A stretch of 64,000 bases of DNA from Algimonas ampicilliniresistens (GTDB taxonomy: Bacteria; Pseudomonadota; Alphaproteobacteria; Caulobacterales; Maricaulaceae), in the NCBI RefSeq assembly GCF_030159955.1, contig NZ_BSNK01000002.1, forward strand, positions 682,001-746,000. The letters are read 5' to 3'. Positions 25,128-61,389 of this stretch are shown piece after piece. Made by a program: the position numbers and the translations under genes. The notes beneath the pieces are model-generated. The model did no database searches. It saw only the letters and a list, made by a program, of their open reading frames with translations, and was not told the DNA's origin. How positions within the stretch are numbered: position 1 is the first letter of the stretch; each line of letters opens with the position of its first letter.

Positions 25128-26201
25128 ATGTCAGAGGGTAACGATACAGGCCAAGAAAAGAGTTTTGAGGCGACCCAGGGCAAGATCGACGATGCCCGTA
25201 AGAAGGGCGATATTGCCAAATCCTCCGAAGTGGCGTCTGTCGCGCTCTATATCGGGGTCGCGATCGCAATCATGACGCTGGGCGGGACGCTCGGCATGAA
25301 TATGCTGTCCCAGCTCTCAGGGTTGCTCGAATATCCGGAACGGGCTGGCGAACTAGTTCTGAAGGGCGGCGCGGCAACGGATCTACTCGGAACGGTCGTG
25401 TTTGCGTTTGTACCCCTTTTGCTTGTGATGATGGCGGCGGTGCTTGCCGCTCTGGTCGTGCAGCGCAGCATCATCTTCGCACCTGAAAAAATACAACCCA
25501 AACTCTCCAAAATCAGTCTCATTTCCAATGCGAAGCAGAAATATGGTCGGGACGGAATGGCGGAATTCGCGAAACGGGCCGCTAAGCTGATCATCGTTTG
25601 TATTGCGTCCGGCGCCTATCTTTACCGCCTCGTCAGTGAAGTCAGTCATGAGATCGGCCGCCCCGAAGGCTATCTCTTCGCCAAGATGGCGCAAGAAAGC
25701 CTTTTGCTGCTGGGCTGGATGATCGCTGCGACCTGCTTGATTGCGGCAATCGATCTACCCTTCGCTAAATGGTCTCATCTTCTGAAACTTCGCATGACCT
25801 TTGAAGAGGTAAAGGACGAGAATAAGAAGAATGAAGGCGACCCGTTCATGAAGGGTCAGCGCCGCGCGCGCGCGCGTGAAATTGCGAACTCGACCATGTT
25901 AGCCGATGTTGCAAAAGCCAATGTTATCATCGTCAACCCGACCCACTATTCTGTCGCGCTGCAGTGGGACCGGGCGGCGGGCGGTGCGCCGATTTGTGTT
26001 GCAAAGGGTGTCGATGGTCTCGCCTTCGCCATTCGCGAACAGGCCAAAAAGCATAACATTCTGATCCATTCCGATCCGCCTTGCGCGCGGGCGCTCCATG
26101 CGACGGTGCCGGTCGGTGATCAAATTCGGCCCGAACATTATGCCGCCGTCGCTTCGGCAATTCATCTGGCCGAGACACTCTCACGCAAGGGCGTCTATTA
26201 A
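25128..26201 (+). CDS. flhB: Export specificity switch protein FlhB
   Basis: FlhB has four TM helices (~30-210) and a cytoplasmic autocleaving domain that switches export from hook to filament substrates in response to FliK. The 357-residue product begins with the family N-terminus 'EKSFEATQGKIDDARKKGDIAKSSEV'. The autocleavage motif NPTH is present at ~270-273 in 'VIIVNPTHYSVALQWD'. The C-terminus is the usual 'IAEHYAAVA..IH' type. It lies 4 bases after fliR. Confidence 0.97.
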   Translation: MSEGNDTGQEKSFEATQGKIDDARKKGDIAKSSEVASVALYIGVAIAIMTLGGTLGMNMLSQLSGLLEYPERAGELVLKGGAATDLLGTVVFAFVPLLLVMMAAVLAALVVQRSIIFAPEKIQPKLSKISLISNAKQKYGRDGMAEFAKRAAKLIIVCIASGAYLYRLVSEVSHEIGRPEGYLFAKMAQESLLLLGWMIAATCLIAAIDLPFAKWSHLLKLRMTFEEVKDENKKNEGDPFMKGQRRARAREIANSTMLADVAKANVIIVNPTHYSVALQWDRAAGGAPICVAKGVDGLAFAIREQAKKHNILIHSDPPCARALHATVPVGDQIRPEHYAAVASAIHLAETLSRKGVY

Positions 26202-26582: not shown

Positions 26583-26635
26583 TAGATCTCAATCAACCAC
26601 GCTTGCGCATCAGTGCCGGCGGCCTATCAAGCTCT

Positions 26636-27364
26636 ATGTCCGGTTCGCCTCCTACACCCTCACCATCCGTTCCGCCGCGTCTTCCGGCGATGCAGTTTTG
26701 GGGTCTATGCTTCATTGTTTATATGGTGATGCAGTTTCCGCTGGTGCGTCTTCCCGTGCTGTTTCTATCGACCTGGGCGCATGAATTCGGGCATGGGCTC
26801 GGCGCGATTATTACGGGCGGAGAGTTTATCGAACTGACCGTTTTCCCAGACTTTTCCGGCGTCGCTCTAACGGCAACAAGTAGCGGTTTTTCGCGCGCTA
26901 TGGTCGTAGTGTTCGGCCTACTCGGCCCCAGCCTGTTCGGTGTTTTGATGATCGTGATGACACGGGCCTTCAGCTTTTACCGATCTGCAATTCTAGTCCT
27001 TGCCGGATTACTCGCTTTGTCGCTGATCTGGGCCGCAGACGGATTTACGATGACGACGTTAGGCGCGGGCGCGGTCATTATGGGATTAATCGGTTGGAAG
27101 CTGCCGCGCCGCGCCCTCCAATATATCGCCTATATTGTGGCGATCGCCATGTGCCTGACGGCGCTAAGCGGATTTAGTTATTTCTTTATCGGCAATGCCG
27201 AAGTGGCAGGCGATTATTACCGGTCCGATACCGGTATATTGGCCGATATTTGGGGTGGCCCCCACTGGTTGTGGGGCGGATTACTGACCCTGCTCTCTAT
27301 CATCATCCTGTTCGCTGGTGTCTTTCTATCAGACCGCTGGGCGCGAGGGCGCTCAACTCAATAG
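26636..27364 (+). CDS. M50B-like membrane metallopeptidase family protein
   Basis: A 242-residue integral membrane protein with about six or seven hydrophobic segments. The first cytosol-proximal helix carries a zinc-binding HExxH: 'STWAHEFGHGLGAIITGGEF' (residues ~50-69). This matches the M50B-like family of putative intramembrane metallopeptidases, whose substrates are mostly unknown. The ATG at 26636 is preferred over a TTG at 26603, which lacks a ribosome site. It sits between the flagellar cluster and the convergent DUF1523 operon, and its link to either is unclear. Confidence 0.72.
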   Translation: MSGSPPTPSPSVPPRLPAMQFWGLCFIVYMVMQFPLVRLPVLFLSTWAHEFGHGLGAIITGGEFIELTVFPDFSGVALTATSSGFSRAMVVVFGLLGPSLFGVLMIVMTRAFSFYRSAILVLAGLLALSLIWAADGFTMTTLGAGAVIMGLIGWKLPRRALQYIAYIVAIAMCLTALSGFSYFFIGNAEVAGDYYRSDTGILADIWGGPHWLWGGLLTLLSIIILFAGVFLSDRWARGRSTQ

Positions 27365-27368
27365 CGCG

Positions 27369-28040
27369 TTACTTTTTTGGTGGTTTTGGCGCCGGGGACC
27401 CAAACAGTTTCCGCCAGAACCCTTGGACTTGTGTGCGCCCTTCGCCGACTGTTTCGCCGACTTCGCGCGCGGCGTCACCGACACTATCGCCGACCTTGTC
27501 CAGTGTCGGATCGATCCGCGCGGCCTTGAAGCGCCGAATAGTGCGCCAGATCCAGAACCACAGACCGAGCAGAAGGCCGATGAAGACGATATTGAACCAA
27601 GGGATCAGCAGGGCGTCAGGTCCTGACACGCGCTTGATCGAGGTTGCATTGGGGAAGATTGAGAAGAGTTTGATCCGCCAGCCATAGTGGCGCACCGCAA
27701 CCCAATCACCATCACCTTTGGCGAGGCTTTGGGCCAGCGCTGTGACGTCACCACTGTCAAATTTGAAATAGGGCGGAAACCCCCAGCCTGTATCCTCATT
27801 GCGATAGACCCGCGTTCGGCCATTTTTGTCTTGCGCATTGATGAAGCGAACGTCGCGTGTCGCGCCTTCGACCGTTCCGATATCGGCGCGGTCCCAAAAG
27901 GGTGCGCCCGTTTCAACGTCGATCCGTTTGACTTCTGTCCCGACGATCTGAACGACATCGCGGTCAGGCAAATAATAATTGAGCAGAACAGCGCCAACAA
28001 CGAACAGGATGAAGGCTGGAATATGTCGCAGATATTTCAT
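27369..28040 (-). CDS. DUF1523 membrane protein
   Basis: A 223-residue protein with an N-terminal TM segment ('IPAFILFVVGAVLLNYYLP'). A ~120-residue extracytoplasmic domain follows, with 'DRDVVQIVGTEVKRIDVET' and 'RDVRFINAQDKNGRTRVYRNEDTGWGFPPYFKFDSGDVTALAQSL'. A second TM segment ('LIPWFNIVFIGLLLGLWFWIWRTI') and a basic cytoplasmic tail close it. This is the DUF1523 pattern of alphaproteobacteria, function unknown. It is last in the seven-gene leftward operon starting at 34634 and converges on the M50B gene. Confidence 0.75.
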   Translation of the reverse strand: MKYLRHIPAFILFVVGAVLLNYYLPDRDVVQIVGTEVKRIDVETGAPFWDRADIGTVEGATRDVRFINAQDKNGRTRVYRNEDTGWGFPPYFKFDSGDVTALAQSLAKGDGDWVAVRHYGWRIKLFSIFPNATSIKRVSGPDALLIPWFNIVFIGLLLGLWFWIWRTIRRFKAARIDPTLDKVGDSVGDAAREVGETVGEGRTQVQGFWRKLFGSPAPKPPKK

Positions 28041-28064
28041 GACGTGTCCTCTTAGCGGTCGGGT

Positions 28065-28343
28065 CTAACCATATTGGGCGAGCCAGATCAGGCCAAAGCC
28101 GATCAGGGATGGGATGATGAAAACGCCGAGCAAAAGTTTGGGGCGGTAAGAGCGCGTATAGGCTTTCATGCCGCGCGCGACGAAATCATCTTCACTTTCC
28201 GCCATTTTGTCGAAGTCTGATAGCGTTTCATATTCAGCTTCAAGAAGCCTTCGATGTTTGAACCGCGCGGTGAAACTCAACACAGCATAAACGACACTGA
28301 GCAGTAGAAAAATAATCACGATATTGCGGATAAGGCCGAACAT
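28065..28343 (-). CDS. Small two-TM membrane protein
   Basis: A 92-residue protein with TM helices at ~1-25 and ~68-90 joined by a charged cytoplasmic loop. I do not recognise a family. Its ATG abuts the stop of the 497-residue gene with no spacer, and DUF1523 follows after 24 bases, so it is an integral part of this operon. Confidence 0.6.
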   Translation of the reverse strand: MFGLIRNIVIIFLLLSVVYAVLSFTARFKHRRLLEAEYETLSDFDKMAESEDDFVARGMKAYTRSYRPKLLLGVFIIPSLIGFGLIWLAQYG

Positions 28344-29837
28344 CTATTTCCTCCGTTTCCTGCCTTTGGTCTGGCTCTTGGATTTTTCAGCTTCCCGCTT
28401 GCGTTTATCATAGGCGCGGCGTTCGGCGGAGCGGTGACGCCAGTCGTCATCATAATCTATATCATCGTCGTCATCTTGGTCTCGGCGGTTTGATGATTTA
28501 TCTGGGTCCCACGGATTGCGTTTTGAAGATCGTCGCTTGGGTTTCCCGCGCGAGATCGGCTCCCTCATGCTCGGTTCTTTGCCAAACAGAGTTTCGCGTG
28601 CGCCCGCCTTGTCGATCGCATATTCTTCTTCGAGGAAGCGGACGACAAAGTCTTTTTTGGTATCTGACCAGTCGCGATAGGCGTCGTAGAATAGGGATTT
28701 GTGGCAGATAAAGAGCTGGCGGAAATCCAGCCGCGACAGGTCGGATAGCAACATATTGACCAGATCGCGGTCGCGATGTTGCGACCCCCGCAGGGCGTAG
28801 AAAAAGGCCGGATGCTTGGGGCCAACTTTTGGCACACGACCGCCCATCGATGCCCAGCGCCAGACGTCCATCAGCCCAGTAAATTCAGGGGGTAAATCAT
28901 TGGCATAGTGGCGTTCAAGCTGACGCATGTTCTGGCGCGACATATCGGATAGATCGTGGCCCTTATCGCCTGCGGTTGAGGCGACGATGAAGTCCATTTT
29001 CTGGCGGATCACGAGCGCGCTATCTTGATTTGGGCGCTGCACAATCAATTCGGTCAGCCCTTCTTGGTAGAGCCAATCGGAAATCGCTTCGCGATCATCA
29101 AGGGTCAGGGTTTGCGGAATATCCAGCGAGTCCAATCCGGGAATTTTGGTTCGCGCAATCACGGTGGGCGTATCCGCATCGCGGAACACATAGACGCCCC
29201 CGAAATGGGAGGTGTAATAATTGCCTTGTTGGAAGACCTTGCCGTCGAGCTTGACCGGGTTGCGCTGAATATTGCCCGTGCGTTTGGCCAGCTCAATCAT
29301 TTCCGCAATCAATACATCGTCCCACCACGCATCCTCTTCCGTCATGAAGCGGTCGATTTGCTTGCCGAGCGTTTCGGCCTCTTTGACATGGGCTTGGGCG
29401 GTGTCTGCCGTGACTTCGATCTGGTTGATGTCGAGTAGGTCAGCCGGTTCACTGATCTTAAACACGGAATCAAGCAGCTCGCCCGCCACCGCTTCGCGCG
29501 CGGTCAGGGCAAACAGCTGATCTTCGTTCTCATCAATATAGCGGCGCAGGATAGACCGTGAGGTCGAAAATTGTGAGCCGAGCAACGGCGCTGTCTTCTG
29601 GTCCGTCGAGAGCAGAATGAACATTTGGTTCGCCCCGTGCGGGTTCAGATAAAGCTCGTCATCAAACTCATGCGCGATTTCTGGCGAATACCCAGCAATG
29701 TCGATATGAAATTCGGTCAGCTCAGATTTTTTACCAATCAAATAATCCAGCGCCCGATTATACCGCTCGACCATAGCGGGCGAGGACACCTCATAAAGGT
29801 TCCCAAACATGAGCCCGGCTTTGACGAGGCGCATCAT
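28344..29837 (-). CDS. Conserved hypothetical protein with highly charged C-terminus
   Basis: A 497-residue soluble protein of unknown function. Residues ~1-415 look like a globular, mixed alpha/beta region without a catalytic motif I can name. Residues ~420-497 form a disordered basic tail (many Lys/Arg) interrupted by a run of Asp (around 'DQDDDDDIDYDDDW'). I recall similar proteins sitting beside AAA ATPases and DUF1523 genes in Rhodobacterales, but I cannot verify a family name. The ATG overlaps the stop of the gene upstream as ATGA. Confidence 0.6.
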   Translation of the reverse strand: MMRLVKAGLMFGNLYEVSSPAMVERYNRALDYLIGKKSELTEFHIDIAGYSPEIAHEFDDELYLNPHGANQMFILLSTDQKTAPLLGSQFSTSRSILRRYIDENEDQLFALTAREAVAGELLDSVFKISEPADLLDINQIEVTADTAQAHVKEAETLGKQIDRFMTEEDAWWDDVLIAEMIELAKRTGNIQRNPVKLDGKVFQQGNYYTSHFGGVYVFRDADTPTVIARTKIPGLDSLDIPQTLTLDDREAISDWLYQEGLTELIVQRPNQDSALVIRQKMDFIVASTAGDKGHDLSDMSRQNMRQLERHYANDLPPEFTGLMDVWRWASMGGRVPKVGPKHPAFFYALRGSQHRDRDLVNMLLSDLSRLDFRQLFICHKSLFYDAYRDWSDTKKDFVVRFLEEEYAIDKAGARETLFGKEPSMREPISRGKPKRRSSKRNPWDPDKSSNRRDQDDDDDIDYDDDWRHRSAERRAYDKRKREAEKSKSQTKGRKRRK

Positions 29838-30451
29838 GAGGAACGGCCTAACTTCTCTTGGAGATATTTTTCTGCGCTAGACTTTTTCTCTTTATATACT
29901 TGAAATAAACCACCGTTCTCAAAGTAGTTACCTTGGAAGGACTTTTTATACTCATCAGTAAATAATGGGTCTCGGTTGCTGTGTAGATGGTCTTCAATCT
30001 GATCTTGGTTTTCATACAAGACGGTTTTGATTTCGCTTATAATGCGTTCAACGGATCGAACGCGATTAAGTAAGTCACGACCCCAAAGTATCTCCGCATG
30101 AATGCTTAAAGCAGATATTTCATCGAGCACAGTATCTACTTTTCTCAAGTTTTGAAAACGGGCCCATGTCTCTGCAAGCATAGGGTGTTTATGCTTAAGG
30201 TCGCTGGTGCCCTCATTCTCAAAAAACGGATTCCAAACAATCACGTCTACAACTGCAGAGTCTAGCTCGGCAAATTTAAGAAGAAGCTCTTTTGCAAGTT
30301 TCGTATTTTCTTCCCAAACCTTCTGATGTTTCCAAGACGTTAGACCTTGCCAAGCAACCCACGATGTAAAAACCGCTGCTCCAGAAAGAACGTAATTCCG
30401 GATTATTTCGGCCCAATCTTTAGCGGATATTTTAAAAAATATATCCTCCAC
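29834..30451 (-). CDS. Membrane-anchored hypothetical protein, AT-rich insertion in operon
   Basis: A 205-residue protein with one N-terminal membrane segment ('NYVLSGAAVFTSWVAWQGLTSW', ~19-40). A cytoplasmic or periplasmic helical domain rich in Glu, Lys and Asn follows. Its composition is unlike its neighbours: hand counts of three 60-base lines gave 33, 38 and 42 % G+C, against 55 % for a line in the adjacent ATPase gene. It is nonetheless perfectly fitted, with a GTG start overlapping the ATPase stop by one base, a GGAGGGGAAGGGA ribosome site, and a stop overlapping the next start. A recent acquisition into a pre-existing operon is likely. No family recognised. Confidence 0.6.
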   Translation of the reverse strand: MEDIFFKISAKDWAEIIRNYVLSGAAVFTSWVAWQGLTSWKHQKVWEENTKLAKELLLKFAELDSAVVDVIVWNPFFENEGTSDLKHKHPMLAETWARFQNLRKVDTVLDEISALSIHAEILWGRDLLNRVRSVERIISEIKTVLYENQDQIEDHLHSNRDPLFTDEYKKSFQGNYFENGGLFQVYKEKKSSAEKYLQEKLGRSS

Positions 30452-32394
30452 TATCCCTTCCCCTCCAAATAACGCCGCTTCGCCTCTTCCTGCCGTCCGA
30501 AATCGCGGACCATATTGTCAATCGCGACTTCATCGCTCTTATCGGCGTAGCGGAACTCGCTATCGGCGTAGCGATTGATTTCTTGGATCACCATATCGAC
30601 TGTGATTTCGGTGGCGAGGTCGGCGATCATGGCGCGTTTGGTGTCATAGTCTTTGTCGAGGAACAGGGATGTGTCTTCCATCCATTCATCTGGGAGTTCG
30701 AAGTCCATGGCGCGGACTTTGACGGCATCGGTGATATTCTTGACCGCGCGTCCGGTGAAGCGCGGATCGGCGGCCTGAATGGCTTTCAGATAAGTGCCGA
30801 GCTTGGCGATGGTGTCGAGCTTGCCTGTGCTCTTTTTGACGGCATCAAAGACGGCTTCGAGCGCTTCTTCCTTGGGCCGAGCATAGGACTCATAGCTGGC
30901 TTTGACCGCCTTCTTAATGGCCTGCGCTTCGAACAGATCATGGTCGCCCACAGGGATGTCGTGGTTCTTACCCATCAGTAGGTGCAGAATATCAATATAG
31001 TCGTCGCGCGTTTGTGGCCCATCGACGAGGAAACGAGCGGACGCCCGTTGGCGCAGCGCGTCGTCCACTTTTTCTGGATAGTTGGAAAACATCCCGAAGG
31101 TGCAATTGCCGCGCACGACCGTATTGGCCCCGGCGAAACTTTCCATGAGGACCGCCGTGATCTCTAACTGCCCGGCAGAACTTTGCCGGTCTCCACGTAT
31201 ACCGGCCAGCTGGTCGATATCATCGATCGTCCCGAAGCCGATCACGTTCGGATCAATAATCTCACGAATGAAGGCCTTGGCATTCTGCGCCGACTTGCCC
31301 TGATAGCTATCGATGCTTTCCGTGGACAGATTGGCGTAGCGGAACGGATAGCCCGCATTTTGGCAGTAATCATTGATGAGACCCGCCATCATCTGGATCA
31401 GGATCGTCTTACCCGTGCCCGGCAGGCCGTCGCCCATAAAGGTGAAGATGAACCCGCCCAAATCTGCAAACGGATTGAGCTTGCGCTCAAAATCATAGGC
31501 CATCAGCATTTTGGACAGTTTCATAGACTGATATTTGGCGATGTGATTACCAACGACCTCGTTCGGTTTTTTGAACGTCATGGTCAGGGTGGTGGAGCGG
31601 GCGCGCGATGCCGCCTCAAAACCCCGGATCTCAAAATCATCTTCCTCGACGCGGTAGGCGACAGACGTGAACGCGTCGAGCCGGGGGAGGTTGGCGGCGC
31701 GCGTTGCGGCCTTGTCCATCAGCTGCTCAAGAAACGCCGTGACGGTCGGGATCAGCTTGGTGTCATCATCGGCGAACAGAGCTAACGTCTGGTCGAGTTC
31801 CCACAGCGCCCCGGTCAGGGCGAGCTGCGGATTATCAGTCAGCACTTCCTCGACATCACCAACATCAACGGACAGTTCGCCCGCTTCATGCAGGGTTGAG
31901 AGCCGGAAGCTCGCCATATTGGCGAAGACATGCAGGGCGATGACGGAGGCGGCGGCAAGGCCTTCAGAGAAGGCGGTCGATTGGCTGCTCGCCAACTTGC
32001 CTTCTAGATTATCTTTCATCAACGCGGACAAGCCCGTCGCATCGGCATATTGATCGACAACGGTGAGGGCCGTGGCTAGCGCGCGGCGTAAGCCGTGCAG
32101 CACGCCCGCCTGAACCGGGCTCATCAAATCATCATCGTCGCTGGTCGCTTCGACGCGTGCGATCAGGTTGACGCCTTCGGCGCGGGCCGTGCTTTGGGTG
32201 ACGAGGCCGGGCGTCGTGGAACGGAAACGGCGACGCCCCGGAATACCCGGCGATCGCCCGGATGAGGGCGCAACGTCGCGCGCTTTGGCCAGACGCGGCG
32301 TATGGTCGAACCCATCTAGCATGGATTGTGCGCTCGCGATCTTTTCGCGGATCGCGCTCTCTTTGATTTCCATGAGGTCAGATGGGTTGGACAT
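30451..32394 (-). CDS. AAA+ ATPase with helical N-terminal region
   Basis: A 647-residue protein. Residues ~1-100 are low-complexity and basic, and ~90-310 are mostly helical. A AAA+ core then follows: Walker A 'GLPGTGKT' at ~322-329, a Walker B-like stretch 'VIGFGTIDDIDQLAG' (~380-394), and a sensor-type 'GNCTFGMFSNYPEKVDDALRQRASARFLV' with the arginine-rich region expected for sensor 1 and the arginine finger. The residue after the Walker B aspartate is Asp rather than Glu. The C-terminal ~150 residues are helical. It is probably a remodelling ATPase that acts on partners encoded in the operon; the role is unknown. Confidence 0.8.
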   Translation of the reverse strand: MSNPSDLMEIKESAIREKIASAQSMLDGFDHTPRLAKARDVAPSSGRSPGIPGRRRFRSTTPGLVTQSTARAEGVNLIARVEATSDDDDLMSPVQAGVLHGLRRALATALTVVDQYADATGLSALMKDNLEGKLASSQSTAFSEGLAAASVIALHVFANMASFRLSTLHEAGELSVDVGDVEEVLTDNPQLALTGALWELDQTLALFADDDTKLIPTVTAFLEQLMDKAATRAANLPRLDAFTSVAYRVEEDDFEIRGFEAASRARSTTLTMTFKKPNEVVGNHIAKYQSMKLSKMLMAYDFERKLNPFADLGGFIFTFMGDGLPGTGKTILIQMMAGLINDYCQNAGYPFRYANLSTESIDSYQGKSAQNAKAFIREIIDPNVIGFGTIDDIDQLAGIRGDRQSSAGQLEITAVLMESFAGANTVVRGNCTFGMFSNYPEKVDDALRQRASARFLVDGPQTRDDYIDILHLLMGKNHDIPVGDHDLFEAQAIKKAVKASYESYARPKEEALEAVFDAVKKSTGKLDTIAKLGTYLKAIQAADPRFTGRAVKNITDAVKVRAMDFELPDEWMEDTSLFLDKDYDTKRAMIADLATEITVDMVIQEINRYADSEFRYADKSDEVAIDNMVRDFGRQEEAKRRYLEGKG

Positions 32395-32400
32395 GAGGCC

Positions 32401-33525
32401 TTACGTATAGCTGAGGATGTTGTCGTTATGACCGACGACATATTTGCGGATGCCGTCGAAACTGCCCGAATGTTTTTCTTCCATCACCTGATAGGCGCGG
32501 TGCGGCAGGATGAGCGAGCGGTTGATGTCGGTATAGCCATCGGTCTTGCCGTCGAGGCCGTAAGCATCGAGCTTATAGACCTGTCGCCAGGCCGCGTTGA
32601 ACACGCCAGTTTTGACCCATTTCTGACCTTCAGATAGCAGTGTTTCCACAGTCCAAGCCAAAGCCCAATCTAGCCCCGGTTGTCCGCTTGCCTCTGCCAA
32701 TACGTCGCGGATTGGGCCGTGTTGTTCGGTGAAGGCGTGGCTATGCATCGGGCCGAGATGGAAGCGGCGTAGCGATTTGGGATGAATGTTGGAAAAGTCT
32801 TCATCGAAGCCTTTGGCAATAGTGAGGAGTTTCAGCTCCGACACAGCTTGCGCCATCAGCGCGTCTTGTAAACGCGGCCAGCGGCGCTCATCATTGGGTA
32901 GGGCACGCGATCCTGTATCATCCAGCTCCATCAGGTAGACGACCGGAATATTAGTCTTTGAATCATAGACCGCCCAATGGACGATATAGCGACGTTTGCG
33001 CTTTTTCAGATCCTTGCCGACCCAGACGGCTTGCGGATGGTTCTGGGACAAAAAGAGCGGTTGGCTGTCTAACGTTTCGTAATAAATACGTTGAGCCAGC
33101 GCATATTGCAGCGCTGTCGGCGCGGACTGTTCGGTCAAGATATGGCTGACCATATCCTTCTTCATACGCTCCTGATCAGGCAGGGATTTTAGGTGTTTTT
33201 TGGCCTGTGTGGCGTCAGATGCCAGTTGGATAATTTCCGAAAATATCGGGAATCCAGACTCCGTTTTATCGATGCTGATTTTGCCGGAATTTTTGGCCCG
33301 GTTAGTCATCAGATATTTGTAGGATAGAGCGGTGAAGCTGTTGTTCAAATCGACCAAATACTGACCAAGAATATCGCCTTCTCCCTTACTGAGCTGTCGT
33401 TCTTCCACGGAGAGTTGTGCGACCGAGCGCAGATGGCCGATGATGCGCTCGAATTTGGCGAAATAACGCCGTGCCGCGCGCGCATTGTCGAGCACGCGGT
33501 GCGTATAGGTGAGGTCGAGATCCAT
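32401..33525 (-). CDS. Hypothetical protein of the AAA+ operon
   Basis: A 374-residue soluble protein (378 if a TTG at 33537 is used; neither start has a good ribosome site). The N-terminal ~130 residues are helical and basic. The middle has 'PQAVWVGKDLKKRKRRYIVHWAVYDSKTNIPVVYLMELDD', which looks like an antiparallel beta sheet. I recognise no catalytic motif or family. It is between the coiled-coil gene (~26 bases upstream) and the ATPase gene (6 bases downstream). Confidence 0.6.
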   Translation of the reverse strand: MDLDLTYTHRVLDNARAARRYFAKFERIIGHLRSVAQLSVEERQLSKGEGDILGQYLVDLNNSFTALSYKYLMTNRAKNSGKISIDKTESGFPIFSEIIQLASDATQAKKHLKSLPDQERMKKDMVSHILTEQSAPTALQYALAQRIYYETLDSQPLFLSQNHPQAVWVGKDLKKRKRRYIVHWAVYDSKTNIPVVYLMELDDTGSRALPNDERRWPRLQDALMAQAVSELKLLTIAKGFDEDFSNIHPKSLRRFHLGPMHSHAFTEQHGPIRDVLAEASGQPGLDWALAWTVETLLSEGQKWVKTGVFNAAWRQVYKLDAYGLDGKTDGYTDINRSLILPHRAYQVMEEKHSGSFDGIRKYVVGHNDNILSYT

Positions 33526-33551
33526 GGAGGTGCTCAAATCTGAGACAGTCC

Positions 33552-34634
33552 CTAAGAGCTTTCGCCATAAGCATTGGCATCATGCTTCTCGACGATCTTC
33601 TCAAACCGTCGGGCGAACCGTTCGTCTGCTTTGGCCTTTTCTTCCAGAACTTTGCGCGCAAAGACGATATGCTCTTCGTGGCTTTCCATCATTTCGGCCA
33701 TTTTATTGTTTGTGGCGGCCCCGATTGCAGCCATCGCGACCTGCGCTTCCTTATCCGTCGCCACGCCGATTTCGTTGATCTTATGTGCGACATCCTGCTG
33801 CTGCGCGGTCTTCAGTGATTTCGATAGCGCATCATAAAGCACGACCCGTTGTTTGGTGTCGGTTGTCAGCTTGTTGAGCAGAACCATCTGGGTTGCGATC
33901 TGGTTCTGAAGGCTGTCCATCCAGGTCTTACCCTTCTCGATGTAGCGTTCCAACGTCTGGCTTTCGGACAGTTTGACCTGCTCGAGCTGCGCCAACTCAT
34001 TATGACGTGAATTGACGGTCGCGAGTTCGGACTCCAACTGCGCGCGTTCTTTAGGTTCTGTGGAGACAGAGAGTTTGTTCTCCAGCTCGATAATCTGCGG
34101 ATCGAGCGCCTTAATTTCGCTTTTGATTTGTTCAAGTGTCGTGACCGCCGCTTCGCGGTCAGCCAGCGTGACCTGCAAATTGGCTTCGACCTGGCCCTTA
34201 TGGCGACCCAGCTCATTGAGCTGTTCCTGCAACATCGCTTGGATCGTATTGGACTTGGCAATCAGGTCTTGCAGCTTATCCTCGATCGTGGCGGCGCGAA
34301 TGCGCTCTTGCCGCAGGCTTTCCGAGCGCTGTTTGGAAAAGACGCCCACAAACTTTTCCCACCCGGTCTTGGACCGCATGGCATCAAAATCTTTGGAAAA
34401 TCCAGCCGTGACGTCGTCCAGACCCATAATGAGTTCGGCAATATTGGCGTTCATCAGGTCGGTGTGAGCGTGGACATCGTCGAGCGAGGCCGTCTCAATA
34501 TCAAGGCTGATATCCGTGCCTTCACTCATCTTGGACCGGGCCGTGTCGATCTGCGACGACAGCTCAGAAATCTTGCTCTGTGCCTCGGCGACTTCTTTTT
34601 TGGATTGCTCAATCTGGGCTTCAAAAGTTGGCAT
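33552..34634 (-). CDS. Long coiled-coil protein heading the AAA+ operon
   Basis: A 360-residue protein, nearly all alpha-helix with extended heptads (~1-50 and ~100-260), no signal peptide and no TM segment. A shorter helical C-terminal domain has 'NKMAEMMESHEEHIVFARKVLEEKAKADERFARRFEKI'. It resembles the general build of TelA/KlaA and of PspA/IM30 proteins, but I see no decisive signature. A strong GAGGAGAGGGA ribosome site precedes the ATG. As the first gene it is probably the most abundant product, consistent with a structural scaffold. Confidence 0.65.
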   Translation of the reverse strand: MPTFEAQIEQSKKEVAEAQSKISELSSQIDTARSKMSEGTDISLDIETASLDDVHAHTDLMNANIAELIMGLDDVTAGFSKDFDAMRSKTGWEKFVGVFSKQRSESLRQERIRAATIEDKLQDLIAKSNTIQAMLQEQLNELGRHKGQVEANLQVTLADREAAVTTLEQIKSEIKALDPQIIELENKLSVSTEPKERAQLESELATVNSRHNELAQLEQVKLSESQTLERYIEKGKTWMDSLQNQIATQMVLLNKLTTDTKQRVVLYDALSKSLKTAQQQDVAHKINEIGVATDKEAQVAMAAIGAATNNKMAEMMESHEEHIVFARKVLEEKAKADERFARRFEKIVEKHDANAYGESS

Positions 34635-34684: not shown

Positions 34685-34720
34685 GGAACGCTCTTATTGT
34701 TATTCAATAAAAATCGTTCC
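34685..34720. repeat. 36-bp imperfect palindrome upstream of the AAA+ operon
   Basis: The arms begin and end with GGAACG and CGTTCC, and inside them TTATTG and CAATAA pair after a one-base bulge. It lies 51-86 bp upstream of the coiled-coil gene and about 80 bp before ygfZ on the other strand, in the only intergenic space available for both promoters. It is a candidate operator. No poly-T run follows in either direction, so a terminator is unlikely. Confidence 0.5.
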
Positions 34721-34801: not shown

Positions 34802-35584
34802 ATGCTGATCCAACGCCGCGACCGGACCGTTCTAAAACTGTCAGGTGAAGGCGTGCGGGACTGGCTGTCCGGTCTGGTGACCAACTCGCTTAGTGCGCCC
34901 GTGACCTTCGCGGCTCTGCTGACACCGCAGGGCAAGATTATCGCAGATATGTTTATCACGGATCGCGGCGATTACTTGCTGCTTGATGCTCCTCAGACCA
35001 TGGGTGAGGCGCTGCATAAGCGATTGAAGATGTACCGACTTCGCGCTCTAATTGAGATTGAGGATGTGTCGGACACTTTCAATGTCCACTGCCTCTGGAA
35101 TTGCGATGATGACTGCGAGGTCGGTGATACGGACCCGCGCTTGCCTGCCCTTGGGCGTCGGTTAATCTCGAACAACAAAAAGGCCAGCACGGGCGATTGG
35201 GACGCGCACCGCCTGTCCCTCGGTGTGCCTGACAGTGAATGGGATTTCGGCACGGCCAGCACATTTCCGGCCGATGCCTGTATGGATCAGCTGAACGGCG
35301 TGGACTTCCACGGCGGCTGTTTCGTCGGTCAGGAAGTGGTCTCGCGCATGCGGCGGATGACAACCGTGCGCAAACGGATGCGCGGCCTTGTTTTGAACGG
35401 GCCTGCGGAGGCTGGCGACAAGATCAAAGCTGGTGAACGCAGTGTGGGACAGGTGCTCCATGTAAGCGGTACGCAAGCGATGGCGCTAGTCCGCCTGGAC
35501 CGACTACGCGAAGCCAGCGTCTCGCCAGAGGTTCGCGGTGAACGTGTCGCTGTGATGGATAGCGTATTAGGCACGGATGATTAG
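34802..35584 (+). CDS. ygfZ: YgfZ/GcvT-like folate-binding Fe-S maintenance protein
   Basis: YgfZ is a tetrahydrofolate-binding protein needed for some Fe-S enzymes. The 260-residue product has the GcvT-like N-terminal domain ('LSGEGVRDWLSGLVTNSL...AALLTPQGKIIADMFI') and the diagnostic cysteine motif near residues 176-188 'GGCFVGQEVVSRM' (consensus K-G-C-Y-x-G-Q-E). The C-terminal beta-barrel follows. It is divergent from the AAA+ operon. A 43-bp gap separates it from the GNAT gene. Confidence 0.9.
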   Translation: MLIQRRDRTVLKLSGEGVRDWLSGLVTNSLSAPVTFAALLTPQGKIIADMFITDRGDYLLLDAPQTMGEALHKRLKMYRLRALIEIEDVSDTFNVHCLWNCDDDCEVGDTDPRLPALGRRLISNNKKASTGDWDAHRLSLGVPDSEWDFGTASTFPADACMDQLNGVDFHGGCFVGQEVVSRMRRMTTVRKRMRGLVLNGPAEAGDKIKAGERSVGQVLHVSGTQAMALVRLDRLREASVSPEVRGERVAVMDSVLGTDD

Positions 35585-56978: not shown

Positions 56979-58022
56979 CTACTTCTTAAGGCCGTGCTTT
57001 CTCAGCAGCCCTCTGAATTGATGATAGGATAGGTCCAGTCGCTCAGCAGCCTTGCCCTGATGATCATTCGTCGCCCGAAGCGCCTCGTCGATGAGGCGAC
57101 GTTCGAAAGCTATCACGCGGTCAGAAAAGCTCTCCGGTATTGGACCGCTCTCTATAGATTGCGGCGCTTGTGGCTGAACCTGTGCTGAGCTGGGCATAGC
57201 ATTGGTGTTTTGCGTCATGGGCGCGATGATTCGGTCCTGCACTCGATAGGGACTGTCGAACGGATCAATATCAAGCGTGTCGATCGGCTGAGATAGACTT
57301 TCATCTTGGAGGAAGGCCTGCACCGCGCTGCGTTCGACGATCAGTTTCAGTTCTCTTACATTGCCGGGGAAAGGATGGGCGCGCATCGCCTCCTGGGCTT
57401 CTGCGGTGAAGCCAGGAAACTGTTCAGCCTCAAGTGAGCGCGCCACTTGTCGGCCGAAATGATCGACAAGAGCTGGAATGTCTTCAACTCGCTCGCGCAG
57501 TGGCGGCAAAGTAATGACGTGAAAGGCGATACGATCGAGTAGGTCACCGCGAAACGCACCCCGCGCGACGGCGGACGGTAGATCTACGGACGTGGCGGCA
57601 ACGACGCGAACATCAACATCTTCCTCATATAGCTCGCCCGTAGCCTGAACTTGACCATGCTCGATCGTATGCATGAGCTTTTCCTGCAAATGCAGTGGCA
57701 TCTCTTCAATACTATCCAAGAATAATGTGCCCTCATTGGCCCCGAAGACCCGACCATTTGTGTCTGAACGCCCATCCATGAAGGTTTGCCCAAACAGTTC
57801 GCGGTCCAAAGCCACATCATCAAAAGCTGCGCAATTGACCCGGACATTGACCTTTTCCCAGCGCGGCGAGAGGAAATGCAAGCGCGAGGCGATCAGTTCT
57901 TTGCCAGTTCCGCGTTCCCCCACGATCAGAACGGGGCGTTCTGTCGATGCCACATCGGACACGCGGTCCATAAGACCCATGAAGGATTCGCCTGAGCCAA
58001 CGGGTTGAGTACGCATGGGCAT
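56979..58022 (-). CDS. pspF: PspF-type AAA+ transcription factor with degenerate sigma-54 motifs
   Basis: Orthologous to PspF, the activator of the phage-shock operon, by position and sequence. Walker A 'GERGTGKELIASRLHFLSPRW', the arginine-finger segment 'FRGDLLDRIAFHVITLPPLRER', 'FPGNVRELKLIVERSAVQ', and the C-terminal helix-turn-helix 'AAERLDLSYHQFRGLLRKHGLK' match closely. Two key motifs are lost. The GAFTGA sigma-54 contact loop is replaced by 'QTFMDGRSDTNGRVF', and Walker B reads 'TLFLDSIEEMP' with Ser in place of Glu. It may regulate sigma-70-type transcription or bind without hydrolysis. It is 347 residues, divergent from the psp genes. Confidence 0.88.
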   Translation of the reverse strand: MPMRTQPVGSGESFMGLMDRVSDVASTERPVLIVGERGTGKELIASRLHFLSPRWEKVNVRVNCAAFDDVALDRELFGQTFMDGRSDTNGRVFGANEGTLFLDSIEEMPLHLQEKLMHTIEHGQVQATGELYEEDVDVRVVAATSVDLPSAVARGAFRGDLLDRIAFHVITLPPLRERVEDIPALVDHFGRQVARSLEAEQFPGFTAEAQEAMRAHPFPGNVRELKLIVERSAVQAFLQDESLSQPIDTLDIDPFDSPYRVQDRIIAPMTQNTNAMPSSAQVQPQAPQSIESGPIPESFSDRVIAFERRLIDEALRATNDHQGKAAERLDLSYHQFRGLLRKHGLKK

Positions 58023-58035
58023 GATTTAGCGTTTA

Positions 58036-58065
58036 TAGCCAATTCAATTTAGTAAATCTAGCCAA
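58036..58065. promoter_or_regulatory. Direct repeats upstream of pspF/psp operon (candidate PspF sites)
   Basis: TAGCCAA occurs at 58036-58042 and 58059-58065, starts 23 bp apart (about two helical turns). The perfect palindrome ATTTAGTAAAT (58047-58057) lies between them. They lie just before the pspF start, where PspF-bound enhancer sites occur in enterobacteria. I found no GG-N10-GC (-24/-12) element in the 238-bp divergent gap. Confidence 0.4.
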
Positions 58066-58260
58066 AATTATCGTGTAATTCGCCACTCAATTTACCGATC
58101 AACGATATGAAAATCATAAACATCAATAAAATCAATGGTTTAGTTTTCCGTGACAGGAGACCCCCTTTCAGCCAATTTGATCTCACAGAAGCGGAGCACA
58201 AAGCTTCGCCCCAAACAGCCCGATATCCGGGCCGAGACTAGAGAGAGATGAAAGGAGACG

Positions 58261-58443
58261 ATGATGACATATCGCACCATCGATAATGACTTGAACGCTG
58301 TGAACGGAAATTCTGCTCCGTCGCGCTCTGTTCGTCGGGCCCGCCGCCGCCGCGGTTTCGCTGCGATGAGCGTCCGCACAGGCAATACTTACGGCTTCAT
58401 GCCAATGCATGGTTCTGTGAATACCTACGAAGAGATTCTATAA
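58261..58443 (+). CDS. Small arginine-rich protein, first gene of the psp operon
   Basis: A 60-residue protein with a polar N-terminus, a basic block 'SVRRARRRRGFAAM' (~23-36) and a Gly/Tyr/Met-containing tail. An AAGGAG ribosome site precedes the ATG, and its stop overlaps the next ATG (TAATG). I recognise no family. Tight coupling to the next small gene and to pspA points to a role in the envelope-stress response; the basic patch could bind membrane or nucleic acid. Confidence 0.6.
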   Translation: MMTYRTIDNDLNAVNGNSAPSRSVRRARRRRGFAAMSVRTGNTYGFMPMHGSVNTYEEIL

Positions 58444-58577
58444 TGGATCACTTCGACCGCAACGAAGATAGCTGGCGCACTAAAGGCGCCCGCTTTGTTC
58501 AATACCTCACCACGCGTGACAAGGAATGCTGGGGCTTCTTCGCCGCAGGCTTTCTAATCGCAGCTATCCTGACCTAG
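58443..58577 (+). CDS. 44-residue single-TM protein of the psp operon
   Basis: A very short gene: ATG at 58443 overlapping the previous stop, TAG at 58575. The product has a charged N-terminus ('MDHFDRNEDSWRTKGARFV') and one hydrophobic C-terminal segment ('CWGFFAAGFLIAAIL'), so it is probably an inner-membrane miniprotein. It resembles PspD in size and topology only. The coupling and codon pattern support a real gene. Confidence 0.6.
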   Translation: MDHFDRNEDSWRTKGARFVQYLTTRDKECWGFFAAGFLIAAILT

Positions 58578-58640
58578 CGGTCAGATTTAATCGCCGGCCT
58601 CAGCCAAGAGGCCACACCATTGTCAAAGGAGACGAGAAAC

Positions 58641-59345
58641 ATGGGTATTTTTTCCCGCATGGGCGACATCATCAATTCCAACCTAAATGCTATGATTGAG
58701 GCCGCCGAAGATCCGGAAAAGATCGCCCGGCTAATCATCCAGGAAATGGAAGATACGCTGGTCGATGTCCGCACTGACGCTGCCCGTCATATTGCTGAGC
58801 GCAAAGAGATGGTGCGTCGCGAAGAAGATTATCGCAAACGGGCCGACGATTGGGCTGCAAAAGCTGAGCTGGCAATCACGAAAGATCGTGAAGACCTGGC
58901 CCGCGGCGCCCTAACCGCTAAACGCCAAGCTGAAGACATGGCCGACGTTGTCGGTAAGGAAATCGCGGTTCTGGACGAAGCCATCGGGAAAGCCGATATG
59001 GATTTGTCAAAATTGCAGACCAAGCTCGACGAAGCTAAGGCCAAGCATAAGTCGCTGACAATGCGCAGCACGGTCGCCAAGAGCCAAGTCAAGATGCGGA
59101 CCAAGCTTGTTGACACACGTGTCGATGACGCGCTGTCTAGATATGAGCGCATGGAACGCAAAGTCGATGAATTGGAAGCCCATGTCGAAGCTTTCGACCT
59201 TGGTGAAGGCGAGAGCCTAGAAAGCCAGTTTGCCGCCTTAGAGTCCGATGAAGAACTCGAAGACGAACTTGCTGCACTGAAAGCTCGCATGAGCAAGCCG
59301 AAAGCAGCGAACAAATCTGACAAGCCTGCCAAAAAGGCGAGTTGA
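58641..59345 (+). CDS. pspA: Phage shock protein A
   Basis: PspA (IM30/Vipp1 family) binds stressed inner membrane as ESCRT-III-like assemblies and inhibits PspF. ATG 58641 follows AAGGAG and gives 234 residues. The N-terminal amphipathic helix 'MGIFSRMGDIINSNLNAMIEAAEDPEKIARLIIQEMEDTLVDVRTDAARHIAERKEM' is typical, and long coiled-coil helices fill ~25-190. A Lys/Ala-rich tail ends it. It is the main structural product of the operon. Confidence 0.96.
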   Translation: MGIFSRMGDIINSNLNAMIEAAEDPEKIARLIIQEMEDTLVDVRTDAARHIAERKEMVRREEDYRKRADDWAAKAELAITKDREDLARGALTAKRQAEDMADVVGKEIAVLDEAIGKADMDLSKLQTKLDEAKAKHKSLTMRSTVAKSQVKMRTKLVDTRVDDALSRYERMERKVDELEAHVEAFDLGEGESLESQFAALESDEELEDELAALKARMSKPKAANKSDKPAKKAS

Positions 59346-59370
59346 TCTAACTGCCGAAAGGCTAAAGAAC

Positions 59371-59437
59371 GCGCCCGGGGGAGACCTCCCCGGTTGACCG
59401 GATATACCCTTCTCCGTTCGCCACACCTCCCGGGCGC
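59371..59437 (+). promoter_or_regulatory. Long-range hairpin between pspA and pspB
   Basis: GCGCCCGGGGGAG (59371-59383) pairs with CTCCCGGGCGC (59427-59437), eleven pairs with a two-base bulge, enclosing an inner GGGGAGACCTCCCC hairpin. It fills most of the 130-bp pspA-pspB gap. No T-run follows, so it is more likely an mRNA-stabilising or attenuating structure that keeps PspA in excess of PspB and PspC. Confidence 0.5.
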
Positions 59438-59475
59438 ACTCAAACCGATCAACGTAACAAAAAGAGAGACCTATA

Positions 59476-59724
59476 ATGCTCAGGCCCGAAATTCTGGTCT
59501 TCATGATTCCCATCGTAGCCATCGTCATGGGCGTGGCCTCCTCGATGCTGAAGACACACTATGAGCACAAGGAACGCATGGGCGGCGGCGGGACACCGGA
59601 AAACGGAACCCACCGCGCCGAACTCGAGCAGATGTCGCGAATCGCTGACATTCTCGACCAGCGCGTGAAAGTGCTGGAACGCATCCTTGACGATGAAATC
59701 CCGAACTGGAGAGACAAATCATGA
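59476..59724 (+). CDS. pspB: Phage shock protein B
   Basis: PspB is a small inner-membrane protein that relays envelope stress to PspA with PspC. The 82-residue product has an N-terminal TM helix ('ILVFMIPIVAIVMGVASSML') and a cytoplasmic leucine-zipper-like helix ending 'MSRIADILDQRVKVLERILDDEIPNWRDK', the PspB signature. It overlaps pspC by ATGA. Confidence 0.92.
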   Translation: MLRPEILVFMIPIVAIVMGVASSMLKTHYEHKERMGGGGTPENGTHRAELEQMSRIADILDQRVKVLERILDDEIPNWRDKS

Positions 59725-60215
59725 CCCGCCGGAAACGTACAGAACGCTGGGAAGATGAATACGGCACCTGGGAAGAAACGGTAGAGACTGGATATGATCA
59801 CGGTCGCCGTCCAAAGCTCCGTCGCAACAAGATTGACGGTATCCTAGGCGGCGTCTGCGCCGGCCTCGGTGACTGGCTCGGTATTGACCACGGCCCGATG
59901 CGTATCTTCTTCGTGCTGGCGGTTATCTTCACCGGCTTACCGATCTTGGTCTATTTCCTGATGTGGCTGTTTATCCCGTCAGACAAGCGAGCGCCTTATG
60001 TTCGTGAACGGACCGAACGGAATAGAGCCCAGCGCAAAGCGCGTCGTCGCGACCGCCATCACGGCTACAGTGAAGCTGCACCGATCGATACGGTCAACTA
60101 TTCGGACGTCCGGTCAAAATTCCGCTCAGTCGAAGAGCGCATGCAAGACCTAGAACGCTCCGTCACCTCGCGCGAATGGAAACTGCGCCGCGATTTCCGC
60201 GACCTAGAGAGCTAG
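59721..60215 (+). CDS. pspC: Phage shock protein C
   Basis: A PspC-domain inner-membrane stress sensor. The 164-residue product has a basic N-terminus and the PspC domain 'LRRNKIDGILGGVCAGLGDWLGIDHGPMRIFFVLAVIFTGLPILVYFLMWLFIPSDK' (~33-89). A charged coiled-coil tail ends 'RSVEERMQDLERSVTSREWKLRRDFRDLES', a sequence also seen at the end of alphaproteobacterial PspC. Coupled to pspB. Confidence 0.95.
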   Translation: MTRRKRTERWEDEYGTWEETVETGYDHGRRPKLRRNKIDGILGGVCAGLGDWLGIDHGPMRIFFVLAVIFTGLPILVYFLMWLFIPSDKRAPYVRERTERNRAQRKARRRDRHHGYSEAAPIDTVNYSDVRSKFRSVEERMQDLERSVTSREWKLRRDFRDLES

Positions 60216-60280
60216 GCCGGACCTAACTTAAATCTGCCGGAGACCAACGCCTCCGGTTCACACAAAAGGGAGAGACGAAA

Positions 60281-60496
60281 ATGAATATCATTGCCACCGC
60301 ATTCATCGCCGGCACCTTTGCCGCCATGCCATTACCCTCATTGCCCTCCAACCCGATTGATGGTTTATCCATCTGCGCCGCCGGGATTGCCTTGGAGCTA
60401 TCCGAAGACGGAATGGAAACGCACGCAGCCGAGACAACGGATTTCGAAATCGAACTTCGTCTGAAATCTGGCTCACCTATCCGAGTGAGACTCTAA
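60281..60496 (+). CDS. Small exported protein of the psp region
   Basis: A 71-residue protein with a hydrophobic N-terminus ('IIATAFIAGTFAAMPLPSLP') that could be a signal peptide or anchor. A short acidic domain ('LSEDGMETHAAETTDFEIELRLKSGSPIRVRL') follows. A GGGAGAG ribosome site precedes the ATG. Its stop overlaps the next gene (TAATG), so the two are coupled. No family recognised. Confidence 0.55.
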   Translation: MNIIATAFIAGTFAAMPLPSLPSNPIDGLSICAAGIALELSEDGMETHAAETTDFEIELRLKSGSPIRVRL

Positions 60497-61389
60497 TGAA
60501 ATATTCGATCCTGACTGGCGCGCTGCTTTCAGCCACGCTGATGACCCCAGCTTTTGCCACCGATATTACGGTGGAAGATTTTGTTGGAAAAATTACGATC
60601 ATCGATGGGAATGACGGTGTTGAGGTTGTGCGAAATGGTAAGCAGTCGGCCGACTATCGCGAAAATGGTGACACAATCATCATTGATGGTGGTTTGTCGC
60701 GCAAACAGCGGGATAAAGCCTGCAAGGGTGGGGGCCTCTCATGGGACCTCGATTTCAATGGGCGCGAGTCTAAAGGCAACACCAAGCTGCAAGACTATCC
60801 AGAAATCCGGATCAGCGTGCCGCGCGGATCGGACTTGACGATCCGAGACAGTTTTGTGCGACTGGATAGTCAGCTTGCTCTGGGAGTTGCAGACCTTCAT
60901 CTAAGCGGTTGCTTTGATGCAAACCTAGCCGATGCCGACGAGATCATTCTGGAAAAGTCCGGTTCCGGCGAAATTACCATTGGCACCGTTGGGTCCCTGA
61001 AGATTGAAAAATCGGGGGCTGGTGATCTGGAGATTGAAAAAGCGGATCGATTTAGTCTGGATCAATCCGGTTCAGGCGAAGTGGAAATCGATCGTGTCGA
61101 TGGACCGGTCGAAATTGAGAAGTCGGGCTCTGGTGATATTGAGATCGGATATATCGATGGGATACTCAGAATCGATAAGTCTGGTTCCGGTGATGTCGAA
61201 GTGGACGGTGGAACAATTCCAGAGCTATCCGTCCATATTTCGGGTTCAGGCGATGTCCAGGTCCATGCCGCTGTTGGCGATGCCTATATCAGGGCGTCAG
61301 GATCTAGCGACATCTATGTTAAATCGATTTCGGGTTCCGTCGACTCATCCGTCTCAGGATCTGCCGATTTTAATCGGGGCGACGACTGA
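60496..61389 (+). CDS. DUF2807-like exported beta-repeat protein
   Basis: A 297-residue protein with a signal peptide ('YSILTGALLSATLMTPAFA') and a body of short beta-strand repeats centred on 'KSGSGDIEI' (for example 'EKSGSGEITI', 'EKSGAGDLEI', 'DQSGSGEVEI', 'EKSGSGDIEI', 'DKSGSGDVEV', 'SGSGDVQV'; ~155-260), with a ~17-19 residue period. This is the DUF2807/GIN-type parallel beta-solenoid, often found with PspC-like proteins in stress loci. Probably periplasmic or surface-bound. It overlaps the convergent mnmC end by 20 bases. Confidence 0.82.
   Translation: MKYSILTGALLSATLMTPAFATDITVEDFVGKITIIDGNDGVEVVRNGKQSADYRENGDTIIIDGGLSRKQRDKACKGGGLSWDLDFNGRESKGNTKLQDYPEIRISVPRGSDLTIRDSFVRLDSQLALGVADLHLSGCFDANLADADEIILEKSGSGEITIGTVGSLKIEKSGAGDLEIEKADRFSLDQSGSGEVEIDRVDGPVEIEKSGSGDIEIGYIDGILRIDKSGSGDVEVDGGTIPELSVHISGSGDVQVHAAVGDAYIRASGSSDIYVKSISGSVDSSVSGSADFNRGDD

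Follow-up and report, generated by a model that had tools for sequence, protein, structure and literature searches.

Classical AAA remodellers such as the p97-like, AFG2, Rpt and katanin ATPases carry a Walker A motif, a Walker B motif and an aromatic pore loop, and a related ATPase, TRIP13/Pch2, is a remodeller of HORMA proteins that also occurs in CBASS. In the literature found, the theme closest to the locus described here occurs in parts of a survey of phage shock protein (PSP) systems, in which PspA/Snf7 proteins occur together with AAA+ ATPases (PMC11237479). Here we describe a seven-gene operon from the alphaproteobacterium Algimonas ampicilliniresistens, found in a stretch of 64,000 nucleotides (contig NZ_BSNK01000002.1, positions 682,001 to 746,000, in the following called the window), which encodes a coiled-coil protein (cc360), a protein of 374 residues (u374), a AAA+ ATPase, a protein of 205 residues, a DUF6638 protein, a small protein with two transmembrane (TM) segments (tm92) and a DUF1523 protein. 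Four of these genes, cc360, u374, the AAA+ ATPase and DUF6638, form a core of fixed order that recurs in distant bacteria, and we tentatively read the operon as a single membrane-tied remodelling machine.

The comparison with the described systems shows likenesses as well as differences. As in the PspA/Snf7 neighbourhoods treated in those parts of the survey, a coiled coil stands beside a AAA+ ATPase and membrane proteins, but DUF6638 and u374 have no counterpart there and no relation between cc360 and PspA could be detected. The ATPase shares the three motifs of the classical remodellers but differs from them in its own N-terminal region, in an Asp-Asp Walker B motif and in its partners. Vps4/ESCRT-III, with its AAA ring working at a membrane on a coiled-coil oligomer, may offer an analogy, although the operon proteins have no MIT-domain match in Pfam and no sequence relation was found. 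The likeness to TRIP13/Pch2 is weak and restricted to the AAA part, and the PADLOC scan of the seven operon proteins gave neither a HORMA nor a CD-NTase match; compared with RavA-ViaA and MoxR-vWA pairs, no MoxR-type or vWA family appeared in the Pfam scan of the operon. DUF6638, DUF1523 and DUF2333, a third family that will be met below, are Pfam families without known function, and no literature on DUF6638 or on the gene set was found in the open full text of PubMed Central. One paper naming DUF1523 or DUF2333 deals, in the part concerned, with a type VI locus of Pseudomonas (PMC5256989).

Results and Discussion

The operon occupies positions 27369–34634 of the window and all of its seven open reading frames (ORFs) lie on the minus strand in the ORF list (Table 1), just as the initial annotation had described them. 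Counted leftward from cc360 the successive junctions measure 26 (or 14 with the TTG start of u374), 6, −1, −4, 0 and 24 bases; no overlap exceeds 4 bases and no gap 26 bases, which is consistent with a single transcription unit. As an M50B-type peptidase gene converges on it at a distance of 4 bases from the end of DUF1523 and a gene with a CAF17-type C-terminal domain diverges from cc360, the unit is bounded on both sides. Among the seven proteins Pfam matches were obtained for the AAA module (E-value 2.3e-11), DUF6638 and DUF1523, and the remaining four proteins showed nothing at the curated cut-off. No match near the cut-off resulted from the NCBIfam scan of the operon proteins, and PADLOC and PHROGs scans gave weak or generic matches only, the best of them for the AAA module, so that none of these four collections names a system, in line with the first reading of the sequence. 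In PDB sequence searches at an E-value of 0.001 the AAA module alone has matches.

Table 1: Features of the operon and of its surroundings in the window (positions refer to the window).
Feature	Position	Strand	Residues	Remarks
cc360	33552–34634	−	360	core gene 1; all-helical coiled-coil protein
u374	32401–33525	−	374	core gene 2; 374 residues from ATG, 378 from upstream TTG at 33537
AAA+ ATPase	30451–32394	−	647	core gene 3; PF00004
205-residue slot gene	29834–30451	−	205	GTG start; not conserved
DUF6638 protein	28344–29837	−	497	core gene 4; PF20343, E-value 4e-176
tm92	28065–28343	−	92	accessory; small protein, TM segments 8–26 and 70–88 (hydropathy scan)
DUF1523 protein	27369–28040	−	223	accessory; PF07509, E-value 2.2e-61; TM segments 3–21 and 144–162, about 120 residues between them
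M50B-type peptidase gene	26603–27364			convergent with the operon
Gene with CAF17-type C-terminal domain	34802–35584			divergent from cc360
Nested inverted repeat	34685–34720			36 bases
FlhB-like	25128–26201			ORF list, by reading
PspF-like	56979–58022	−		ORF reading
PspA-like	58620–59345	+		ORF reading
PspC-like	59721–60215	+		ORF reading
Repeat-rich secreted protein	60496–61389	+		ORF reading

To see how far the genes stay together, genome contigs were scanned with the DUF6638 protein, which gave 52 loci from Algimonas, Robiginitomaculum and many Rhodobacteraceae. cc360 is present in 43 of them, u374 in 46, the ATPase in 48 and tm92 and DUF1523 in 51 each; after start assignment, with truncated ends dropped, the same counts are 43, 44, 46, 51 and 51. 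Apart from those of a single locus (L055) all absences lie at contig ends: eight of the nine loci without cc360 are cut in this way, and so is the only one without tm92. The order cc360, u374, ATPase, a variable slot, DUF6638, tm92 and DUF1523 is found in every locus having both cc360 and DUF1523 (42/42), which means that the six-gene order is complete in 42 of the 52 loci, nine of the other ten being cut by contig ends. As all complete loci share this order and that of the core recurs in distant lineages, the gene set is far beyond chance. An L,D-transpeptidase gene lies at most 1.5 kb upstream in 36 of the 42 complete loci, an aldehyde dehydrogenase gene at most 1.5 kb downstream in 35, and both in 33 (gene names by reading); this mostly fixed site looks like that of a chromosomal unit that is inherited, has been lost in places and is occasionally transferred, and not like a defence island. 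In L055, from a Sulfitobacter metagenome-assembled genome (9133–11930), the L,D-transpeptidase gene directly precedes a DUF6638 gene lacking about its first 127 residues, and cc360, u374 and the ATPase are gone, by deletion or assembly error.

Besides Rhodobacteraceae and Algimonas-like bacteria, the four-gene core was found in rhizobia, Vibrio, two more families of alphaproteobacteria, a genome of another class and a viral contig; from likeness to named loci we infer that family f25 is Rhodobacteraceae and g1 Algimonas-like. Of eight further stretches that were read, six had been picked for the ATPase or u374, and each of these contains the complete core; the other two, picked for DUF1523 alone (G028 and G247), have only DUF1523. 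A locus of family f107 (G211) shows the contiguous core with DUF1523 and an absent slot gene. All six conserved genes are present in the locus from another class (G504). In each of the four core trees it stands closest to one and the same Rhodobacteraceae locus (L049), as would be the case had the set moved as one. The core also occurs on pSymB of Sinorhizobium meliloti, in Shinella and in Vibrio parahaemolyticus, with 39% (cc360), 28% (u374) and 25% (DUF6638) identity in the latter; a tblastn search of a plasmid collection with the ATPase gave ten records (four from Sinorhizobium, four from Vibrio and one each from Shinella and Rhizobium), in three of which the neighbourhood was read.

The distribution across genomes fits this picture. 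In a class sample DUF6638 exceeds the cut-off in 5 of 289 genomes, with a sixth (G249) below it, and u374 was found in the same 5/289. Of 299 genomes in a phylum sample 20 carry the ATPase, one of them being that of the window, and in a second such sample DUF6638 was found in 19 of 299, the DUF6638 sample being centred on G504 with non-carrier genomes that may differ from those of the ATPase sample. Both proteins mark the same 19 genomes and their genes are at most about 1.1 kb apart in each of them. Within family f25, sampled with one genome per genus, u374 occurs in 50 of 120 genomes, and within the window's order in 4 of 61, all from one genus. Genes scattered independently in relatives, or matches placing them in separate known pathways, had been named at the outset as what would speak against a common system; we looked for both and found neither for the four-gene core, as its order is kept in distant lineages and ATPase and DUF6638 occur together.

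The ATPase consists of an N-terminal region of about 270 residues followed by one classical AAA module, and its initial assignment is well founded with 44.7 bits against a curated PF00004 cut-off of 21.2. Invariant among 12 diverse ATPases of the family are the Walker A motif PGTGKT, D391-D392-x-D394 in the Walker B region, N438 (the sensor-1 asparagine), R448, R450 and R454 (the arginine-finger region), R549 and the motif Y364-Q365-G366-K367, which represents the aromatic pore loop 1. In the HMMER alignment Walker B and the pore loop match those of p97-like and AFG2 ATPases, whose motifs read DEID and (Y/W)-x-G. Over about 130 residues the module aligns weakly to ATPases in the PDB (best E-value 3.5e-6), with katanin, CDC48 and AFG2 listed among the best 60 of 111 matches, and it also aligns to proteasome ATPases. 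The PADLOC model of TRIP13 matches the ATPase with E-values of 8.5e-5 in the window and 1.2e-7 on the viral contig, and a TRIP13/Pch2 entry of the PDB does so with 0.0047. A catalytic glutamate is usual where this ATPase has an aspartate in Walker B. As the Asp-Asp pair is retained even in the ATPases from Vibrio and the viral contig, it is a trait of the family.

For cc360 the mean column identity is 85% over 44 rows, and its fold search matched SMC-type coiled coils as well as others. The predicted fold of u374 combines a helical N-domain, weakly similar to PhoU/BAR-like folds, with a beta C-domain weakly similar to T-folds; no family could be assigned, and searches of the PDB and of viral structure libraries gave nothing at an E-value of 0.001. 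In DUF6638 a charged tail starts at about residue 425. The initial annotation had pointed out this tail, which is indeed present in the lineage of the window but absent from distant relatives, and the Pro-Trp motif inside it (P442-W443) is invariant across 45 aligned rows.

The 205-residue protein encoded between ATPase and DUF6638 had been taken as membrane-anchored, a description that the hydropathy scan, which calls no TM segment, does not bear out. No relatives of it were found in the 52 DUF6638 loci, nor in 119 loci outside the window's own genome. In 37 of the 42 complete loci the same slot is taken by tm114, a small protein with several TM segments and about 114 residues, and in three loci from Algimonas and Robiginitomaculum (L008, L053 and L009) by other ORFs without detected relation to the 205-residue gene; in another genome of the window's genus (G432) ATPase and DUF6638 are only about 300 bases apart. 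Having no relatives and standing in a slot of varying content, the 205-residue gene is a lineage-specific occupant. An apparent fusion of ATPase and DUF6638 in Rubellimicrobium mesophilum (L046, 7718–11428) was rejected, as the ATPase stop is missing there and the slot gene is out of frame; the open frame is probably an error or a stop loss. In S. meliloti Ak57 (L098, 9941–11686) a DUF559 endonuclease-like gene and an IS4-family transposase lie between ATPase and DUF6638.

Downstream of the core the two-TM protein and the DUF1523 protein are as first annotated (Table 1). The tm92 profile found no match in the f107 locus at an E-value of 0.1, nor at 0.01 in the loci from family f168, genus g366, Sinorhizobium, Shinella, Vibrio and the viral contig. 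In S. meliloti (L098), Shinella (L100) and genus g366 (L091 and L094) the gene immediately behind DUF6638 encodes a DUF2333 protein that has N-terminal TM segments. The membrane partners are thus lineage-specific, being tm92 with DUF1523, DUF1523 alone or DUF2333, and the link to the membrane is recurrent but not universal.

The viral copy is located on an IMG/VR contig of 359,044 bases (L101) and shows the order cc360, u374, ATPase and DUF6638 with DUF2333 (E-value 7.7e-91) directly before cc360. The viral contig scans point to at least four distinct records: three entries (L106–L108) are the same 359-kb record, two (L103 and L104) have weak AAA matches only, and in another (L105) the coiled-coil gene at the very end of the record, read by eye, probably belongs to a host and borders on a provirus. 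Neighbours of the core in L101 are SmpB, peptide deformylase, a phage-type ATP-dependent protease and a DnaJ-like protein (the last by reading), a weak match to an Rz-like spanin (E-value 1.2e-4) lies nearby, and a stretch more than 90 kb away is densely packed with short ORFs. The terminase model PF03237 has no match in the record, so that its assignment draws on the weak spanin, the protease, SmpB, peptide deformylase and the dense small ORFs; with these the contig is a probable huge phage. Among 50,697 named phage records tblastn found no relative of the ATPase from this contig at an E-value of 1e-15. FliG- and FliM-like genes at 494–1410 of L101 (Pfam E-values 5.7e-17 and 2.8e-22) are unusual phage cargo.

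Taken as a whole the operon may encode a single threading machine of the AAA+ type, tied to the inner membrane, which would use two adaptors to remodel the coiled-coil protein encoded beside it; we favour this reading tentatively. By analogy with the AAA family the ATPase would form a ring and pull polypeptide through its central pore by the aromatic pore loop. Judged from the anatomy of the operon, its client could be the long coiled coil cc360, probably as an oligomer, which would be disassembled or remodelled, with u374 and DUF6638 as putative dedicated adaptors and the membrane proteins tethering the cycle to the inner membrane and perhaps passing on a signal into or out of the periplasm. 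The cellular role would likely be upkeep or remodelling of the inner membrane or envelope, the least certain step of this model; the earlier proposal of envelope or vesicle remodelling or stress defence is plausible. That proposal had also regarded all seven genes as one machine, which agrees with the four-gene core wherever it was observed, and with tm92 and DUF1523 in Rhodobacterales and Algimonas, but not with the unconserved 205-residue gene or with DUF1523 occurring free of the core. Several observations weigh against the threading machine at the membrane. DUF1523 lacks DUF6638 in four of its nine carriers in the class sample, DUF2333 was found in 65 of 289 genomes of a phylum sample, of which 8 (all g366) carry the core and 57 are not among the listed ATPase carriers, and in the Vibrio record no membrane gene was recognised next to the core on either side; the membrane link could therefore be secondary. 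In addition, the helical structure model of cc360 is of low confidence (pLDDT 64) and its fold matches are generic coiled coils, the aspartate in Walker B may make ATP hydrolysis slow or different, and the high correlation between the trees of the four core proteins (0.911–0.986 for pairwise distances over 53 loci), which in itself speaks for a common unit, could also follow from vertical inheritance alone.

A somewhat unlikely alternative is that the ATPase, together with u374 and DUF6638, acts as a cytosolic, client-specific unfoldase or assembly chaperone on a soluble or nucleic-acid-bound target, with cc360 as scaffold and the membrane genes merely co-transcribed. The Vibrio core would fit such a chaperone, as would the alignment of the ATPase to general unfoldases (p97-like, AFG2 and proteasome ATPases) and the SMC-type coiled coils among the matches of cc360, but tm92 and DUF1523 stand beside DUF6638 in 51 of the 52 loci, and rhizobia, g366 and the viral contig have another membrane protein, DUF2333, beside the core. 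Anti-phage defence, in which the viral copy would serve counter-defence or exclusion between phages, is improbable. The patchy presence in f25, the core on a viral contig, the variable slot and the TRIP13-model matches all speak for it, but there is no recognised effector enzyme in the core, the site in Rhodobacterales is stable and unlike a mobile island, and PADLOC gave no other clear match to the core proteins: two weak matches of u374 to BrxA (E-values 0.026 and 1.5e-4) concern different regions and different models and were judged noise, and the LmuB and SMC/SbcC matches of cc360 were rejected as generic coiled coil or noise.

Common descent with ESCRT-III/Vps4 or PspA-type systems, with cc360 as a distant family member and the ATPase as Vps4, has very little probability. 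A helical partner next to a classical AAA ATPase speaks for it, and PspA/Snf7-AAA neighbourhoods are described in parts of the PSP survey (PMC11237479). However, the echo of PspA-type systems that the initial annotation had seen in a coiled coil next to a membrane module is not supported by comparison of cc360 with the one PspA sequence of the window (hhalign probability 2.6%, BLASTP E-value 5.4), PspA_IM30 and Snf7 are absent from the families listed in the Pfam scans of the window proteins and of the relatives' loci, and no Vps4 appears among the best 60 of the 111 PDB matches, where katanin, CDC48 and AFG2 do. ESCRT-III chains are absent among the 50 fold matches listed for cc360, which leaves an ESCRT-III fold possible. 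Barely credible is a tellurite or Ter-type stress system in which cc360 would represent a divergent TelA, a thought prompted by similar length and helical nature: hhalign comparisons with five TelA proteins from four alphaproteobacterial genomes gave probabilities of 0.1% and 6.5%, cc360 has no PF05816 (TelA) match in the Pfam scan, the window's own genome has no TelA match, and one genome (G022) has TelA on a different contig besides carrying the operon.

About 50 bases upstream of cc360 lies a 36-base nested inverted repeat, possibly an operator, and a similar inner half-site pair (TTATTG-N5, then about CAATAA or CGATAA) was seen upstream of the coiled-coil gene in two Algimonas loci (L008 and L053). 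Searches for LexA, CtrA, EcfG and RpoH patterns upstream of this gene gave one match across 44 sequences, and promoter and terminator scans no signal above shuffle level. The left part of the window (173–26582) is rich in flagellar genes according to the ORF list, by reading. A Psp-type locus, already recognised in the first annotation, is located separately from the operon at 56979–61389 (Table 1).

Conclusion

In summary, four protein families, three of them of no known function, form one unit across distant bacteria, and DUF6638, DUF1523 and part of DUF2333 thereby gain a common context and a testable machine with a motor. That this unit represents a separate, undescribed class of membrane-coupled AAA+ machines of proteobacteria, performing a Vps4-like job on an unrelated coiled coil with an exchangeable membrane partner (DUF1523 or DUF2333) and taken over by a huge phage to serve in its infection cycle, is a further proposal that we regard as unlikely at present. 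The copy on a large phage-like contig suggests a function that is useful in infection. Should the motor indeed act at the membrane with cc360 as its client, bacteria would possess a second route of AAA-driven coiled-coil remodelling besides PspA/ESCRT-III.

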